Below, piece after piece: positions 5,192-64,000 of a stretch of DNA of 64,000 nucleotides (positions are counted from its first letter, which is position 1; the number at the start of each line of letters is the position of its first letter). A program made the translations under genes and the position numbers. The notes beneath the pieces are model-generated. The model worked only from the letters and a program-made list of their open reading frames with translations, did not search any database and was not told the origin of the DNA. The stretch is from Aedoeadaptatus coxii. Its GTDB lineage: Bacteria; Bacillota; Clostridia; Tissierellales; Peptoniphilaceae. The stretch lies in NCBI RefSeq assembly GCF_001553115.1, contig NZ_KQ960160.1:1-64000 (forward strand), in the 5' to 3' direction.

Positions 5192-6070
5192 ATGAAGATT
5201 ATAGACACTATCGGCCATACGCCCGTCGTACAACTTTCAATGGGCGGCGGCCGCATATATGCAAAACTTGAAAAAAATAATCCGGCGGCGAGTATTAAGG
5301 ATCGCATCGCCTACGCCATGGTGAACGACGCCATCGAAAGGGGCGCGCTGAAGCCCGGCATGAAAATCGTCGAGCCCACGAGCGGCAACACGGGCATCGC
5401 CCTTTCCCTTATCGGAAAGCAATTAGGCTATGATGTAACCATCGTCATGCCCGCCTCCATGAGCGACGAACGCAAGGCGCTGATTCGCTCCTTCGGCGCG
5501 GAGCTTCTTTTAGTGGAGGAAGGAGGCATGCAGGCGGCGGTGGATAAGGCGAAGGAACTGGCCGCTACGGGAGATTATTTTTTGCCCGATCAATTTTCCA
5601 ATCCTTCCAATCCGAAGATGCACGAAAAAACAACGGGACCCGAAATTTTAGAAGCCCTTGATTCCGTCGCCGTCTTTGTGGCAGGCATCGGCACCGGCGG
5701 CACGGTGACCGGCGTAGGCAGAGCGCTGAAGGCGAAGAATCAAAATACCGTCGTCGTGGGGATCGAGCCGGCGGAAAGCCCCCTTATAACGCAGGGAAAA
5801 GCAGGGAGCCACGGAATTCAAGGGATCGGCGCCAATTTTATCCCCGAAAACTACGATCCCGGCGTCGTGGATGAGGTGATCACCGTTACAAGCGAAGAGG
5901 CTATGGACATGGCGCGCCGTTTAAGTGCGGAAGAAGGTTTAAGCGTGGGGATTTCCGCAGGAGGCAATGTGGCAGGTGCGCTAAAACTCGCCGAACGCTA
6001 CGAAGGCAACATCGTCACGGTATTGCCCGACGCGGCGGAACGCTACATGTCGACGGATCTTTTTCAATAG
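5192..6070 (+). CDS. cysK: Cysteine synthase (O-acetylserine sulfhydrylase)
   Basis: PLP-dependent enzyme that makes cysteine from O-acetylserine and sulfide. The 292 aa protein has the PLP lysine in ASIKDR (Lys36), the substrate loop TSGNTG (63-68) and the phosphate-binding GTGGTVTG (167-174), all intact. The start at 5192 fits the promoter and a GAAAGG site upstream. The next gene, cysE, begins two bases after the stop, so the pair forms the complete serine-to-cysteine route. The short C-terminus ends DLFQ, as in typical Firmicute CysK. Confidence 0.95.
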   Translation: MKIIDTIGHTPVVQLSMGGGRIYAKLEKNNPAASIKDRIAYAMVNDAIERGALKPGMKIVEPTSGNTGIALSLIGKQLGYDVTIVMPASMSDERKALIRSFGAELLLVEEGGMQAAVDKAKELAATGDYFLPDQFSNPSNPKMHEKTTGPEILEALDSVAVFVAGIGTGGTVTGVGRALKAKNQNTVVVGIEPAESPLITQGKAGSHGIQGIGANFIPENYDPGVVDEVITVTSEEAMDMARRLSAEEGLSVGISAGGNVAGALKLAERYEGNIVTVLPDAAERYMSTDLFQ

Positions 6071-6072
6071 AC

Positions 6073-6591
6073 ATGCTGTTTAAAAGGCGAAGAAAAATCG
6101 CGGAGGTCATCTTACAGAAAGACCCCGCTTGTCGAAACCTTTTCGAGGCTATGTTTCTTTACCCGGCCGTCACCGCCCTTTTAAGTCACGAGCGAGCTCA
6201 TCGCCTCTATTTAAAAGGCCACACGACATGGGCGCGATGGATTTCCCACAGAAGCCGCAATAAAACCGGCATCGAAATTCATCCCGGAGCGCGTATCGGC
6301 GAGAGGTTATTTATCGATCACGGAACGGGCGTGGTCATCGGGGAGACGGCGGTCATTGGCGACGACGTCACCATTTATCACGGCGTCACCTTGGGCGGCC
6401 GAGGGAAGAGCAAAACCAAACGCCATCCCACCATTGGACATCGAGTACTCCTGGGGGCGGGATCTACTGTCTTAGGGCCTATTGTCGTCGGCGACGATGC
6501 AAAAGTCGGTGCAGGCGCCGTGGTACTGGATCCCGTGCCTGCCCACGCCACCGTCGTAGGGATTCCCGCTGAAGTAGTTCATCAACGTTAA
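6073..6591 (+). CDS. cysE: Serine O-acetyltransferase
   Basis: Makes O-acetylserine from serine and acetyl-CoA for CysK. The 172 aa protein is the short form, with a compact helical N-terminus and a left-handed beta-helix of hexapeptide repeats (about residues 75-165), including the active-site stretch FIDHGTGVVIGETAVIG and HPTIGHRVLLGAG. It follows cysK by two bases and is surely co-transcribed. The C-terminal tail that gives feedback inhibition in longer enzymes is very short here. Confidence 0.93.
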   Translation: MLFKRRRKIAEVILQKDPACRNLFEAMFLYPAVTALLSHERAHRLYLKGHTTWARWISHRSRNKTGIEIHPGARIGERLFIDHGTGVVIGETAVIGDDVTIYHGVTLGGRGKSKTKRHPTIGHRVLLGAGSTVLGPIVVGDDAKVGAGAVVLDPVPAHATVVGIPAEVVHQR

Positions 6592-35215: not shown

Positions 35216-36430
35216 ATGAATGAAGATGAAAAGGAATACCGCTACATCTACTCACCTGCCAAAAAGAAAAAGCCGGGCCTGTTGATTTTATGGGCGCTGA
35301 TTTTTTCCCTTATCGGCGGTGCAGTTGGTAGCGCCGTAACCTATCATATAATGCCCGCTAAATCGAGCATCAACGTAGCAAGCAATCAAAACAACGACGC
35401 GCCGAAAGTGCGGAAACACGAAACCGGCGTCGTGGAAAGTGTGGCGAAAAAAGCTATGCCCTCTGTCGTGGGGATTACAACATCCACCACGAAAAATACC
35501 CTTATGGGCCCCATGGCCGTACAGGGAAGCGGCAGCGGCTTTATTATTTCAGAAGACGGCTACATTCTTTCCAATGCCCACGTGGTAGGGAAGACGGGAA
35601 ATAAAGTAAAGACACTTTTAAACGACGGTACCGAAGCCGAAGGAAAAGTGGTCTGGTCCGATGAAACATTGGATTTGGGTCTTGTGAAGATTAACAAAAA
35701 AGGCCTGCAACCCCTTCCCATGGGCGACAGTGACGCCCTTAATATCGGCGAAACCGCCGTCGCCATCGGCAATCCTTTAGGTTTGGATTTCCAACGCTCC
35801 GTAACGGCAGGGGTCATTTCGGGGCTTAATCGAAACATCGGCGAAGTACAGGGCAATTATATGGACGGCCTCATTCAAACCGACGCTTCCATTAATGCGG
35901 GCAATTCCGGCGGCCCCCTTTTAAATAGCGAAGGGGAAGTTGTAGGGATCAACTCCGTTAAAATTGCCACGGCGGAAGGGCTGGGCTTTTCCATTCCCAT
36001 TAATACGGTAAAACCCATTGTGGAACAAGTGATTCGAACGGGAGATTACAATTCCGTCGCCCTCGGCATGAGCGGCTACACCGTAAGCGCCATTGAACGA
36101 AGCGGATACGATCTCGGCACCGGCGGCAAAGGTGTTATCGTCGGCGGCGTGGAAGCCAACTCACCGGCGGCTGCGGCGGGACTCAAAGCCAACGATATTA
36201 TTTTAAAACTCGGTGATAAAGCCATCGATTCCATGAGCCAATTGCGCCGTGAACTTTACAAATACAAATCCGGAGATTCCGTCGATGTGGTCATCGTAAG
36301 AGGCGGGAAAAAACAAACCCTTAAACTTACCTTCACCGATTACCAAGTGCCGAAATTCCTGCCACAAGCACGGCAACAAGCACAGGAAGAACCGCAAGAA
36401 GATCCGGAATCCATTTTCCCCATGCCTTAG
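35216..36430 (+). CDS. HtrA/DegP-type serine protease (S1C family)
   Basis: 404 aa. A short cytoplasmic tail and one membrane helix (about 20-45) anchor the protein; the protease domain with the triad His (SNAHVVG, about 121), Asp (DETLDLGLVKI, about 153) and Ser (NAGNSGGPLL, about 229) lies outside, followed by one PDZ domain (about 275-370) and a Pro/Glu-rich tail. It degrades misfolded surface proteins. AAAGGAG precedes ATG 35216. The long intergenic region upstream carries AT-rich promoter-like sequence. Confidence 0.92.
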   Translation: MNEDEKEYRYIYSPAKKKKPGLLILWALIFSLIGGAVGSAVTYHIMPAKSSINVASNQNNDAPKVRKHETGVVESVAKKAMPSVVGITTSTTKNTLMGPMAVQGSGSGFIISEDGYILSNAHVVGKTGNKVKTLLNDGTEAEGKVVWSDETLDLGLVKINKKGLQPLPMGDSDALNIGETAVAIGNPLGLDFQRSVTAGVISGLNRNIGEVQGNYMDGLIQTDASINAGNSGGPLLNSEGEVVGINSVKIATAEGLGFSIPINTVKPIVEQVIRTGDYNSVALGMSGYTVSAIERSGYDLGTGGKGVIVGGVEANSPAAAAGLKANDIILKLGDKAIDSMSQLRRELYKYKSGDSVDVVIVRGGKKQTLKLTFTDYQVPKFLPQARQQAQEEPQEDPESIFPMP

Positions 36431-43788: not shown

Positions 43789-43817
43789 TAAGAGCGGGCG
43801 ATGCCTGCTCTTATTTT
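43789..43817 (+). terminator. Terminator after rex
   Basis: AAGAGCGGGC-GAT-GCCTGCTCTT followed by ATTTTTG. It covers the first possible ATG of the next ORF (43801), which is a reason to move that start downstream. Confidence 0.8.
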
Positions 43818-43836
43818 TGTACAGAAAAGAGTTGCC

Positions 43837-44625
43837 ATGTTGTCTCATTTAGCCATGACCATCGAAAGCGGACAGTATCACCATTGGGAGAAAAAAGAAA
43901 ACCTCTACGCGTTGGTAAATGGCGAAGAGGCTTTTTTTCTAAAAGAGGGCGCCCTTATAAAAGGGGATGAGGATGCCTTTTTTCGCTTTATCGACGGATA
44001 CAGAGATTACGAAAAGGTGGCGAAGATGGTGGAAGAAAGCGAGGATTTAAAAGACCTCGCCCCCTATTTGCCTCTTCGTATATTGCGCCAATCGCCATGG
44101 GAAGCCATGGTCTCCTATATTTTATCGGCGAATAATAATCTACTGCGCATACGCCGCAGCGTGTTGGATCTTTCAAAAACCTACGGCACCCTTCTCGGAA
44201 AAGCGGAGGGTCTTGCGGCCTACGCCCTTCCCGCGCCGAATGTTCTCGCCGCTTGCTCCCCGGAAGATCTTCGTGCCCTCGGCGCCGGGTACCGGGACCG
44301 CTACCTTATAGGGGCAGCGACCATGATAGAGGAGGGAGGTTTCGATTTAAATGCACCTTTTGCCATGGCATACGACGAGGCGAAGAAATATGTTATGACC
44401 CTTCCCGGCGTAGGGCCTAAAGTGGCAGATTGTATTTTGCTCTTCGGTTACGGAAAGGGCGATGCCTTTCCCGTGGATACGTGGGTGGAAAAGTCCATGG
44501 CCCGCTTTGGCCGTTTTTCGTCGAGAAAAGCTATGAGCCAATACGGCATGGAGCGCTTCGGCGACGACGCAGGCTATATTCAGCAATTATTATTTTTAAG
44601 TGAACGAGAAAAGAGGAATTTATGA
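43837..44625 (+). CDS. OGG1-type DNA glycosylase/AP lyase
   Basis: 262 aa. N-terminal beta domain, then a helix-hairpin-helix glycosylase domain with PWEAMVSYILSANNN and TLPGVGPKVADCILLFGYGKGDAFPVDTWV: the lysine in GVGPKVAD corresponds to the catalytic lysine of OGG1 and the Asp in PVDTW to its partner. It should excise 8-oxoguanine or related lesions. I place the start at 43837, because 43801 lies inside the rex terminator. The end overlaps the next gene by ATGA. Confidence 0.85.
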   Translation: MLSHLAMTIESGQYHHWEKKENLYALVNGEEAFFLKEGALIKGDEDAFFRFIDGYRDYEKVAKMVEESEDLKDLAPYLPLRILRQSPWEAMVSYILSANNNLLRIRRSVLDLSKTYGTLLGKAEGLAAYALPAPNVLAACSPEDLRALGAGYRDRYLIGAATMIEEGGFDLNAPFAMAYDEAKKYVMTLPGVGPKVADCILLFGYGKGDAFPVDTWVEKSMARFGRFSSRKAMSQYGMERFGDDAGYIQQLLFLSEREKRNL

Positions 44626-62204: not shown

Positions 62205-63215
62205 ATGTTTAATTTCAGAAACGATTACCACGACCTTTGCCACCCGAAGGTTTTGGAAAAACTTATGGCCGTGCAGGGGGAAAATAACGTAGGCTACGGA
62301 TTTGATCCCCACACGGAGCGGGCGGCGAAACTCATCGGCGAAGCCCTTGGGAAACATTACCCCGTGCATTTCGTACCCGGCGGGACGGCGGCCAATACTC
62401 TCGCCATCGGCTTTCGACTCCTGCCACACGAGGCGGTAGTTTCGGCAGATTCCGGCCATATTGTCGGCGACGAAGTGGGGGCGGTGGAAAGCGGCGGCCA
62501 TAAAATTATTACCGTACCTACGGAAAGCGGAAAATTCGATCCTGATGTATTAAACGATCACTTGGAAAGCTTCGGCAGTTTCCACAATGTACTTCCGGGA
62601 ATGATTTATCTTTCCAACGCCACGGAAACCGGCAGGGTCTACACGAAAAAAGAACTTGAAGCCATTCGGGAAGTGGCCGATCGCCACGAGCTTCTCGTCT
62701 ATATCGACGGCGCTCGCATGGCCAGCGCCCTTATGAGCGAGGCGAGCGATTTAACCCTCGCCGATTATCCGAACTATGCCGATATTTTCTCCGTCGGCGG
62801 CACGAAAAACGGCGCCCTCTTTGGTGAAGCCCTCGTATTTTCCAACATACGCCTCGCCGACGAGTTTATCTATTACCAAAAGCAGCAATCCCTCCTTCTC
62901 GCCAAAGGCTTTCTCTTAGGGGCGCAATTTGAAGCCCTTTTTGAGGATAATCTTTACTTCGACATTGCCAAAAAAGCCAACGCTATGGCGAAAAAACTTT
63001 ACAGCGCATTGGATACCATCGGCTACACCCCCATTTATCCCTTGGAAAGCAATCAGCTTTTTGTGGAAGTGGAAAGGGAAAAAATTGAAAGCCTTCGCGA
63101 AGCCGGCCAATTTGAAATCGCAAGAGAAGGGGAAAAGACGCTGGTTCGCTTCGTCACCACTTACGAAACCAAAGACGAAGAAATCGCAGAACTCCTTGCG
63201 GTCTTAAAAAAGTAA
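62205..63215 (+). CDS. Low-specificity L-threonine aldolase family enzyme
   Basis: 336 aa PLP enzyme of the beta-eliminating lyase/threonine aldolase group. MFNFRNDYHDLCHPKVLEKL, the PLP-binding FVPGGTAANTLAIG, DGARMASAL and the lysine in SVGGTKNGALFGEA are in place. It cleaves L-threonine (or allo-threonine) to glycine and acetaldehyde. GGAGGTG places the start at ATG 62205 rather than 62193. An in-house glycine/serine source next to a cysteine transporter is plausible but not shown. Confidence 0.85.
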   Translation: MFNFRNDYHDLCHPKVLEKLMAVQGENNVGYGFDPHTERAAKLIGEALGKHYPVHFVPGGTAANTLAIGFRLLPHEAVVSADSGHIVGDEVGAVESGGHKIITVPTESGKFDPDVLNDHLESFGSFHNVLPGMIYLSNATETGRVYTKKELEAIREVADRHELLVYIDGARMASALMSEASDLTLADYPNYADIFSVGGTKNGALFGEALVFSNIRLADEFIYYQKQQSLLLAKGFLLGAQFEALFEDNLYFDIAKKANAMAKKLYSALDTIGYTPIYPLESNQLFVEVEREKIESLREAGQFEIAREGEKTLVRFVTTYETKDEEIAELLAVLKK

Positions 63216-63245
63216 GGGAAAAAATCCAATTCCGACTAAAAGAGT

Positions 63246-63274
63246 TTGACAACAACGCTTTACCGTGTTATCCT
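63246..63274 (+). promoter_or_regulatory. Promoter of the cysteine-leader operon
   Basis: A perfect TTGACA (63246-63251), 17 bases, then TATCCT (63269-63274). The leader peptide follows about 30 bases later. Confidence 0.7.
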
Positions 63275-63307
63275 TAACGAAAGTTAAAACAAAAAGGAAA
63301 GAGAACC

Positions 63308-63409
63308 ATGATGATTAAAAAGAAACAAAACATGTCCATCTGCGCATGTTGCTGTACTTGTTGTACGGCTTATTTGCCTGCGCAAATGTTTTGTTTTTGG
63401 CGACCGTAA
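63308..63409 (+). CDS. Cysteine-rich leader peptide (33 aa), probable attenuator
   Basis: MMIKKKQNMSICACCCTCCT then AYLPAQMFCFWRP. Seven of 33 residues are cysteine, six of them within eight codons. AAAGGAAAGAG precedes the ATG. A rho-independent terminator follows at 63435, and then the start of an amino acid ABC transporter permease. This is the classic layout of a transcription-attenuation leader: ribosomes stalling at Cys codons when Cys-tRNA is scarce would favour an antiterminator. TGCGCA segments at about 63343 and 63379 could pair with each other as an alternative structure. Confidence 0.75.
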   Translation: MMIKKKQNMSICACCCTCCTAYLPAQMFCFWRP

Positions 63410-63434
63410 AAGGCGTTAATTTCATCATTTGAAG

Positions 63435-63458
63435 AGCGGGCGAAAGCTCGCTTTTTTT
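63435..63458 (+). terminator. Attenuator terminator before the permease gene
   Basis: AGCGGGC-GAAA-GCTCGCT (one G-T pair) followed by TTTTTTG. It lies between the leader peptide and the permease and would block expression when the leader is translated freely. Confidence 0.85.
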
Positions 63459-63478
63459 GTTGTCTGAAAGGAGTTGCC

Positions 63479-64000
63479 ATGAATTGGGCATTCATGCTTG
63501 AAATGCTTCCCCATTACGCGGAAGCCGCCAAGCTTACGGTGCGAATCGGGCTGATGGGCGTAGGAGGTTCCCTCGTCATCGGTCTTATCCTCGCCTTTAT
63601 ACGGGTCGAAAAAATCCCCGTCTTAAACGGAATCACAAAATGCTATATCGAACTTTCGAGAAACACGCCCCTTTTGATTCAATTGTTTTTTCTCTACTTC
63701 GGGCTGCCGAAAATCGGCATCGTTTTATCGTCGGAAACCTGTGCCGTGGCGGGCCTCATCTTTTTAGGGGCGAGTTACATGGCGGAATCCTTCCGCTCGG
63801 GCCTCGAGGCCGTGTCCAAAGGGCAGATCGAAGCGGCGAAAAGCATCGGCCTTACGAAAAGCGCCATGCTCCGCCACGTCATCTTGCCCCAGGCCATGGC
63901 CATTGCCGTGCCCTCCATCGGGGCGAACATGATTTTCCTCTTGAAAGAAACCTCCGTGTTCAGCGCCGTAGCCCTCGCCGATTTAATGTATGTGGCGAAA
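63479..64000 (+). CDS. Amino acid ABC transporter permease, probably cystine/cysteine (partial)
   Basis: 174 codons read in frame to the window edge; the gene continues beyond it. It starts MNWAFMLEMLPHYAEAAKLTVRIGLMGV, has the conserved ELSRNTPLLIQLFFLYFGLP and the EAA loop EAAKSIGLTKSAMLRHVILPQA that contacts the ATPase, as in HisM/TcyB-type polar amino acid permeases. AAAGGAG precedes ATG 63479. The Cys-codon leader upstream suggests that the substrate is cystine or cysteine. Binding-protein and ATPase genes are expected just downstream. Confidence 0.88.
   Translation, partial: MNWAFMLEMLPHYAEAAKLTVRIGLMGVGGSLVIGLILAFIRVEKIPVLNGITKCYIELSRNTPLLIQLFFLYFGLPKIGIVLSSETCAVAGLIFLGASYMAESFRSGLEAVSKGQIEAAKSIGLTKSAMLRHVILPQAMAIAVPSIGANMIFLLKETSVFSAVALADLMYVAK

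Follow-up and report, generated by a model that had tools for sequence, protein, structure and literature searches.

The window, 64,000 nucleotides of Aedoeadaptatus coxii contig NZ_KQ960160.1, closes inside the first permease gene of an amino acid ABC transporter (PF00528; 63479–64000, forward strand), which continues past the window to contig base 64153. A compact set of signals precedes it on the same strand. The promoter, of the sigma-70/A type, spans 63246–63274, with TTGACA (63246–63251) and TATCCT (63269–63274) set 17 nt apart and the latter preceded by TG. Downstream, a purine-rich ribosome binding site (AAGGAAAGAG, 63294–63303) leads into a 33-codon reading frame (63308–63409) whose product reads MMIKKKQNMSICACCCTCCTAYLPAQMFCFWRP; together they constitute a putative translated ORF. 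An intrinsic terminator follows (63431–63456; GAAGAGCGGGCGAAAGCUCGCUUUUU, then a T tract), its end separated by 22 bases from the permease ATG at 63479, with the permease's own ribosome binding site (AAAGGAG) at 63467–63473. The first-pass annotation had described a leader with seven Cys codons, six of them within eight codons, together with a consensus promoter, a ribosome site and an intrinsic terminator ahead of the permease, and each of these lies where it was placed.

Taken overall, the promoter scan barely beats chance (3 found against a shuffle mean of 1.5, s.d. 1.2); in 10 of the 11 orthologous loci, our own counted, the best promoter-like site upstream combines TTGACA with a spacer of 17 nt. 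Judged by eye, a purine-rich stretch precedes all eight leaders of the genus, and a hairpin with a T tract occupies the terminator position in the orthologous loci. A separate stretch of the window between two unrelated genes (43790–43839) is 80% like the leader's terminator and ribosome site; the likeness covers these two elements alone, and no leader was seen there. No phage match was found.

Beyond the window the operon continues in the order permease, permease, ATPase, binding protein. The binding protein (contig 65543–66406) has 1xt8 (E 2.2e-88) and 2yjp (3.4e-84) as its nearest solved chains, followed by a gap of about 45 orders of magnitude to the third (7.5e-39); 2yln is a far weaker match (2.8e-14). 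We take 1xt8 to be the cysteine-binding Cj0982 (CjaA) of Campylobacter, 2yjp the L-cysteine receptor of Neisseria and 2yln the gonococcal cystine receptor. By this homology the transporter is likely to be cysteine-specific. NCBIfam is more general: the permeases pass the cut-off for the general domain TIGR01726 alone, none of the best 25 of 189 families reaches cut-off with the ATPase, and none of those listed does so with the binding protein, which comes nearest to a Lys/Arg/Orn subfamily, followed by the cystine equivalog, and falls far short of the cut-off for each. All eight genomes of the genus also contain cysE and cysK, so strict auxotrophy for cysteine is improbable in Aedoeadaptatus. 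In the window, cysK adjoins cysE (5204–6570), and no Cys run was seen by eye upstream of the pair. Directly past the operon and outside the window (contig 66595–71667; L003:5596–10668) are genes for a response regulator and a sensor kinase together with a pair of ABC exporter genes; by eye they resemble antimicrobial-peptide resistance modules.

The leader carries Cys at codons 12, 14, 15, 16, 18, 19 and 29. The first six fall within eight codons (12–19, C A C C C T C C; 63341–63364), a mid-ORF cluster that we propose as the stall site. In a census of all ORFs of 10–80 codons on both strands of the window (n = 1,152; 555 forward, 597 reverse), the leader is the sole case with 6 Cys in 10 codons; the runners-up comprise one ORF with 4 Cys per ten codons and twelve with 3. 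Next to the leader in Cys content among the window's short ORFs is one on the reverse strand at 36340–36423 (MGKMDSGSSCGSSCACCRACGRNFGTW). Another frame across the leader holds a second ORF (63346–63432, MLLYLLYGLFACANVLFLATVKGVNFII), which we rejected as the leader. Its ATG is found in 6 of 8 genus leaders, but the resulting lengths run from 28 to 151 codons; the frame differs in G003, the ORF is absent in G007, and no purine-rich site lies ahead of it.

Among 130 Peptoniphilaceae genomes, the first permease is found (E ≤ 1e-50) in 11: all eight of Aedoeadaptatus, plus G013, G015 and G142. Every one of the eight genus genomes has a Cys leader, with 6 to 8 Cys codons. Five of these leaders align without gaps and retain Cys at all seven Cys columns, with both TGT and TGC in use at three of the seven and a differing residue at all four columns between Cys, two pairs among the five being identical or nearly so over the Cys run. 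The Cys positions thus survive exchange of TGT for TGC while the intervening codons change, the pattern of conservation despite drift that the first-pass annotation had proposed as a check. Downstream of the run, LPAQM is invariant in the genus, and its codons are near-invariant at wobble positions too, with CAA/CAG alone varying.

The three other genera of the family with the operon are represented by one genome each, and a Cys-run leader is present in two (by eye, MSFENCKSSCSCMCCCSYGFLACHF... in G013 and MKNFNYANNNSMCTCCGMEMSLFC... in G142). The G015 leader holds two Cys only, among many Ser (..ASCSSCSSLSSGSG..), which may reflect either decay or a change in what is sensed. In the same locus (L013, reverse strand, from roughly 225 to 90 bases upstream of the permease) the antiterminator pairing described below is perfect, at 7 of 7. 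An RNA model, R1, was searched over the 130 family genomes with strict filters and 23 candidates scored in each genome listed; its ten strong matches (E 3e-19 or less) are its ten source loci, and the next stands at 4e-5. We fetched the 20 loci next in rank (L170–L189). Three read by eye resemble plain terminators after genes, and none of the 20 has a Cys-rich ORF at the matched place, with 5 having one elsewhere in the fetched 3 kb. L185, from family genome G113, contains a 576-base repeat (around 453 and 1029) that yields very Cys-rich ORFs (LCWCCRCCCCCNCC..) and is a source of false Cys runs. A genome-wide search for the Cys-leader pattern, allowing two mismatches, was uninformative, giving 115 matches against 296 in the backward control.

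For a wider comparison we took the first permease's 80 closest named relatives, a set of best matches and not a random sample. The order permease, permease, ATPase, binding protein holds wherever the locus is long enough, except in L096, L104, L112 and L116, each missing one or more recognised genes. Scoring as a Cys leader any ORF with at least four Cys in ten codons lying no more than 500 bases upstream of the permease, we find one ahead of the operon in 27 of the 80 loci, compared with 0 of 80 on the reverse strand and 1.05 expected from dinucleotide shuffles. Seven of the 27 are Peptoniphilaceae and 20 lie outside the family, including leaders from Anaerocolumna (..KSCCCMCIFCFTE), Lacrimispora (..MKCCCCCRCF..), Herbinix (..NTCCCKCCSCQSE) and Candidatus Avacidaminococcus (MNAGGKEMLCCCCCC..). 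Outside the genus the Cys spacing ranges from CCCCCC (L114) to CCGMC (L079), and by eye the flanks have nothing in common to all. A hairpin with a T tract lies between the leader stop and the permease in 28 of 28 loci (the 27 with a Cys leader and L079), as against 7 of 28 on reverse complements and a mean of 2.1 of 28 after shuffling. Ribosome stalling on Cys codons had been called unusual in Firmicutes by the first-pass annotation, a view to be corrected in that such leaders recur on this operon in Clostridia, at those 20 loci outside the family.

Among the 53 loci without this strict signal, a looser search (a ribosome site plus CC or CxC) adds only two and gives 0 of 53 on the reverse strand; with few exceptions, then, a locus either has a clear Cys leader or lacks one altogether. 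No leader was found in the 22 Streptococcus loci. Relatives lacking the Cys run had been named beforehand as counting against stalling; the run is kept throughout the genus and in two of the three other family genera, and it is reduced to two Cys in G015, with no Cys leader detectable in 51 of the 80 named relatives. The four-in-ten rule may overlook weaker leaders. In a sample of the phylum, 9 of 398 genomes (our own included) hold the permease at E ≤ 1e-45. Among the other eight, a distant relative, L156 (G488, reverse strand), has by eye a ribosome site, a leader whose Cys codons are adjacent (..RHSMMCCRMF..) and then a terminator, all ahead of the permease. L153 and L154 have ORFs with 4 Cys per ten codons at −582 and 5 at −446, respectively; we take these for probable noise in an upstream gene, and both loci were entered as 'none' when the tree was labelled.

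A quick tree was built from 91 permeases, the 80 plus 11 found by the genome search, with 33 labelled as having a leader; on it, leader presence takes 15 changes against 27 in shuffles. Four of the changes are forced by well supported branches, and gain and loss cannot be told apart. Four permeases from Treponema and Spirochaetaceae records (L083, L096, L103 and L124) sit amid Clostridia on this tree, which suggests transfer or binning error, and no Cys leader was found ahead of them.

The leader RNA folds better than 200 of 200 shuffles (z −3.5). Hairpin P2 (63351–63369) pairs GCUGUAC (63351–63357) with GUACGGC (63363–63369), the Cys codons occupying its 5′ arm and loop. On A2, an alignment of 11 loci built without structure, P2 (chosen after viewing A2) is paired in 97.3% of 73 cells and shows double changes at 7 of 8 pairs. 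None of 500 shuffles reaches any of five measures, and sliding the helix by 1–3 columns drops pairing to 26–61%. A long-range helix, P1, links the start-codon region (63321–63333, AGAAACAAAACAU) with RNA beyond the antiterminator left arm (63386–63398, AUGUUUUGUUUUU) and is mostly found in the minimum-energy fold too. Over six dereplicated genus leaders (eight computed), native P1 strands average −18.3 kcal/mol compared with −14.4 for swapped partners, and 2 of 720 permutations are as good, native included. Against 300 shuffles each, the fraction is 0.000 for G003, G004, G005 and G007, 0.057 for G000 and a weak 0.37 for G002.

The candidate antiterminator pairs a left arm at 63373–63381 (UUUGCCUGC, core GCCUGC at 63376–63381) with a right arm at 63436–63444 (GCGGGCGAA) that overlaps the terminator 5′ arm. 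At the left arm, 12 nt (UUUGCCUGCGCA) are invariant in all eight genus members, wobble positions included. Counting seven pairs, GCCUGC/GCGGGC is paired in 90.3% of 72 cells against 30–47% when slid, and the six core pairs are formed in all but one of 11 loci, with variants such as GGCUUGC with GCAGGUC (G013) and GGUCUGC with GCAGACC (G015). By eye, no antiterminator was found in G142, where the right arm falls mostly in an alignment gap. Of 500 shuffles, 28 reach the covariation score, and pair types are fewer than the shuffled mean. In 21 dereplicated loci, native duplexes between spacer and terminator total −253.4 kcal/mol compared with −216.0 when permuted (p = 0.0002), the native duplex being better than the mean foreign partner in 13 of the 21 and no better in 8.

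Placing a ribosome on the Cys run rather than at the stop codon increases upstream pairing of the terminator 5′ arm in 25 of 29 loci, a gain that is partly trivial, arising from the shorter free RNA. Compared with spacer shuffles, this pairing has a fraction ≤0.05 in 11 of 29 loci, of which five are Lacrimispora-type leaders nearly identical to one another; for the eight Aedoeadaptatus leaders it is no better than with shuffled spacers (fractions 0.38–0.52). For the window leader, the equilibrium fold of the unfinished transcript gives 0.74 when ribosome-free and 0.76 when stalled, and folding therefore lends the closed state no support here. From the topology, the antiterminator left arm lies inside P1, so a closed P1 would withhold it from the terminator. 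Overall, P2 covaries strongly, and the backing for P1 and the antiterminator is weaker and mixed.

No Rfam family matches the window leader at gathering score; sub-threshold matches are the L20 leader (25.7 bits against 58.7) and MicC (20.9 against 90). T-boxes (RF00230) are absent from the window at gathering score and from 63200–63500 at E up to 1. In 53 of the 80 named loci (all but 19 Streptococcus, 7 Peptoniphilaceae and L082), no Rfam family was found near the permease, the five matches obtained, from L075 and L080, each lying over 2 kb upstream. T-box matches number 9 to 11 in each of the eight genus genomes and 11 in our own; 6 of these 11 reach gathering score, so that absence at that score is not proof. 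By eye, the longest ORFs following the own-genome T-boxes are what we take to be brnQ, ilvB, a methionine-type ABC ATPase and another ABC ATPase (some 600 bases on), and presumably serS, valS, proS, asnA, ileS, thrS and tyrS, with no Cys-related gene after any of the 11. Since T-boxes precede other amino acid genes, the lineage uses them elsewhere and a leader peptide at the importer.

We consider it highly probable, on these comparisons, that the leader is an attenuator of the ribosome-mediated transcription type, sensing charged tRNA-Cys and controlling the operon of a cysteine ABC importer. The features of such an attenuator that a sequence can reveal are present, the antiterminator in part only: comparison brings out the Cys run, promoter, terminator, operon, conservation and P2 and, less firmly, P1 and the antiterminator. 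What we infer is that the ribosome stalls and does so in dependence on Cys-tRNA, along with the folding order and the transported substrate. With ample cysteine, the ribosome would cross the Cys run and depart; P2 and P1 would then close over the leader, enclosing the GCCUGC segment, and with GCCUGC trapped the terminator would form ahead of the permease. When Cys-tRNA is scarce, the ribosome would stall at codons 12–19 and block P2 and P1, leaving GCCUGC to pair with GCGGGC of the terminator 5′ arm, and RNA polymerase would read on into the importer genes. The stalling model of the first-pass annotation accordingly gains support at the level of sequence from the conserved Cys run, the partly conserved pairings and the cysteine-type importer.

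A different sensor had also been entertained there, the leader peptide itself, which would bind metal or react with thiol stress agents, so altering translation or stability and then the terminator. The spacing C-x-C-x-C-x-C-x-C-C-C, seen in five of the eight genus leaders, does resemble a set of metal ligands, and the invariance of LPAQM in the genus could speak for a functional peptide. However, the LPAQM codons coincide with the antiterminator arm and their wobble positions are near-invariant, so the RNA can explain them; the operon is by homology a cysteine importer and not a set of metal or stress genes; and outside the genus only the Cys run is seen to be common, with variable spacing. 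Because nothing but that run is seen shared across families, the proposal goes unsupported, and we regard it as very unlikely. Equally improbable, in our estimation, is control by the RNA independent of the peptide, through a riboswitch or a protein-binding attenuator with the ORF incidental. The conserved, structured P2 and P1 and a fold better than every shuffle would suit it, but Cys is kept as an amino acid while its codons vary, the RNAs of other families are seen to share just the Cys run and the terminator, and no Rfam family reaches gathering score. That the ORF is Cys-rich by chance, regulates nothing and simply falls between a gene and an ordinary terminator is barely credible despite the abundance of short ORFs in the window (1,152), given that the leader is the outlier among them, recurs in 8 of 8 genus genomes and 27 of 80 loci, and contains the covarying P2.

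The proposed tRNA-Cys attenuator has familiar relations. Attenuators of the trp and his type consist of a short ORF with a run of cognate codons, a hairpin over the run, an antiterminator and an intrinsic terminator before the cognate operon. The Aedoeadaptatus leader shares the codon run, hairpin and terminator, with a candidate antiterminator and a probable cognate operon, and differs in the amino acid that it would sense (Cys), in serving an importer, in its host lineage (Clostridia) and in a P1 helix that pairs the start-codon region with RNA past the antiterminator arm. The T-box, the usual solution in Firmicutes, likewise attenuates in dependence on tRNA charging, as we propose here, but no T-box match occurs at the leader. 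In mycobacteria, Cys leaders are reportedly leaderless, to go by the title of a 2020 study by Canestrari. Passages of PMC1262725 describe Cys-run leader ORFs upstream of cysteine genes in Mycobacterium, Propionibacterium acnes and Bifidobacterium longum, with the run near the stop codon and, in Mycobacterium, no conserved terminator hairpins. The run of Cys codons is common to both; unlike the Actinobacterial leaders as described there, ours has a mid-ORF run, a ribosome site (63294–63303), an intrinsic terminator and an importer as target.

The uORFC-8-2 motif, described in PMC8632094 and found before cysS in Rhodobacterales, likewise places the Cys codons of a leader ORF within a stem and has a U run as in an intrinsic terminator; it differs in having two tandem Cys codons, a cysteinyl-tRNA synthetase gene as target and an Alphaproteobacterial host. 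Within Firmicutes, a precedent lies in the histidine leader peptides of bacilli before hisS*/hisZ, reported in PMC2965389; beyond Proteobacteria and Actinobacteria, its authors write, they knew of no earlier demonstration of such an attenuator other than the atypical leader of ermC. Like those, ours would be a regular leader-peptide attenuator in a phylum where T-boxes are common; it concerns another amino acid, gene and lineage, and the two are likened by description, not by sequence. No Cys leader-peptide attenuator in Firmicutes stands among the literature matches listed, which is not proof, as subscription papers fall mostly outside their scope.

The kind of attenuator is thus known, and what appears new is the recurrence of Cys-run leaders on one importer operon across Clostridia. 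Tentatively, we suggest that Clostridial cysteine import may be governed by an undescribed class of leader attenuators sensing Cys-tRNA, gained or lost many times on the same operon, with their sequences replaced and the promoter, Cys run, hairpin and terminator kept; such switches would have been built anew from random sequence in lineages that use T-boxes. Should the attenuator itself prove true, cysteine would be added to what leader peptides sense in Firmicutes, and a Cys run before the operon would serve as a marker supporting the assignment of an anonymous amino acid importer to cysteine. The 20 loci outside the family, which reduce to some fifteen distinct leaders of differing sequence when near-copies are pooled by eye, all on one operon, would then offer material on how such switches originate and decay.
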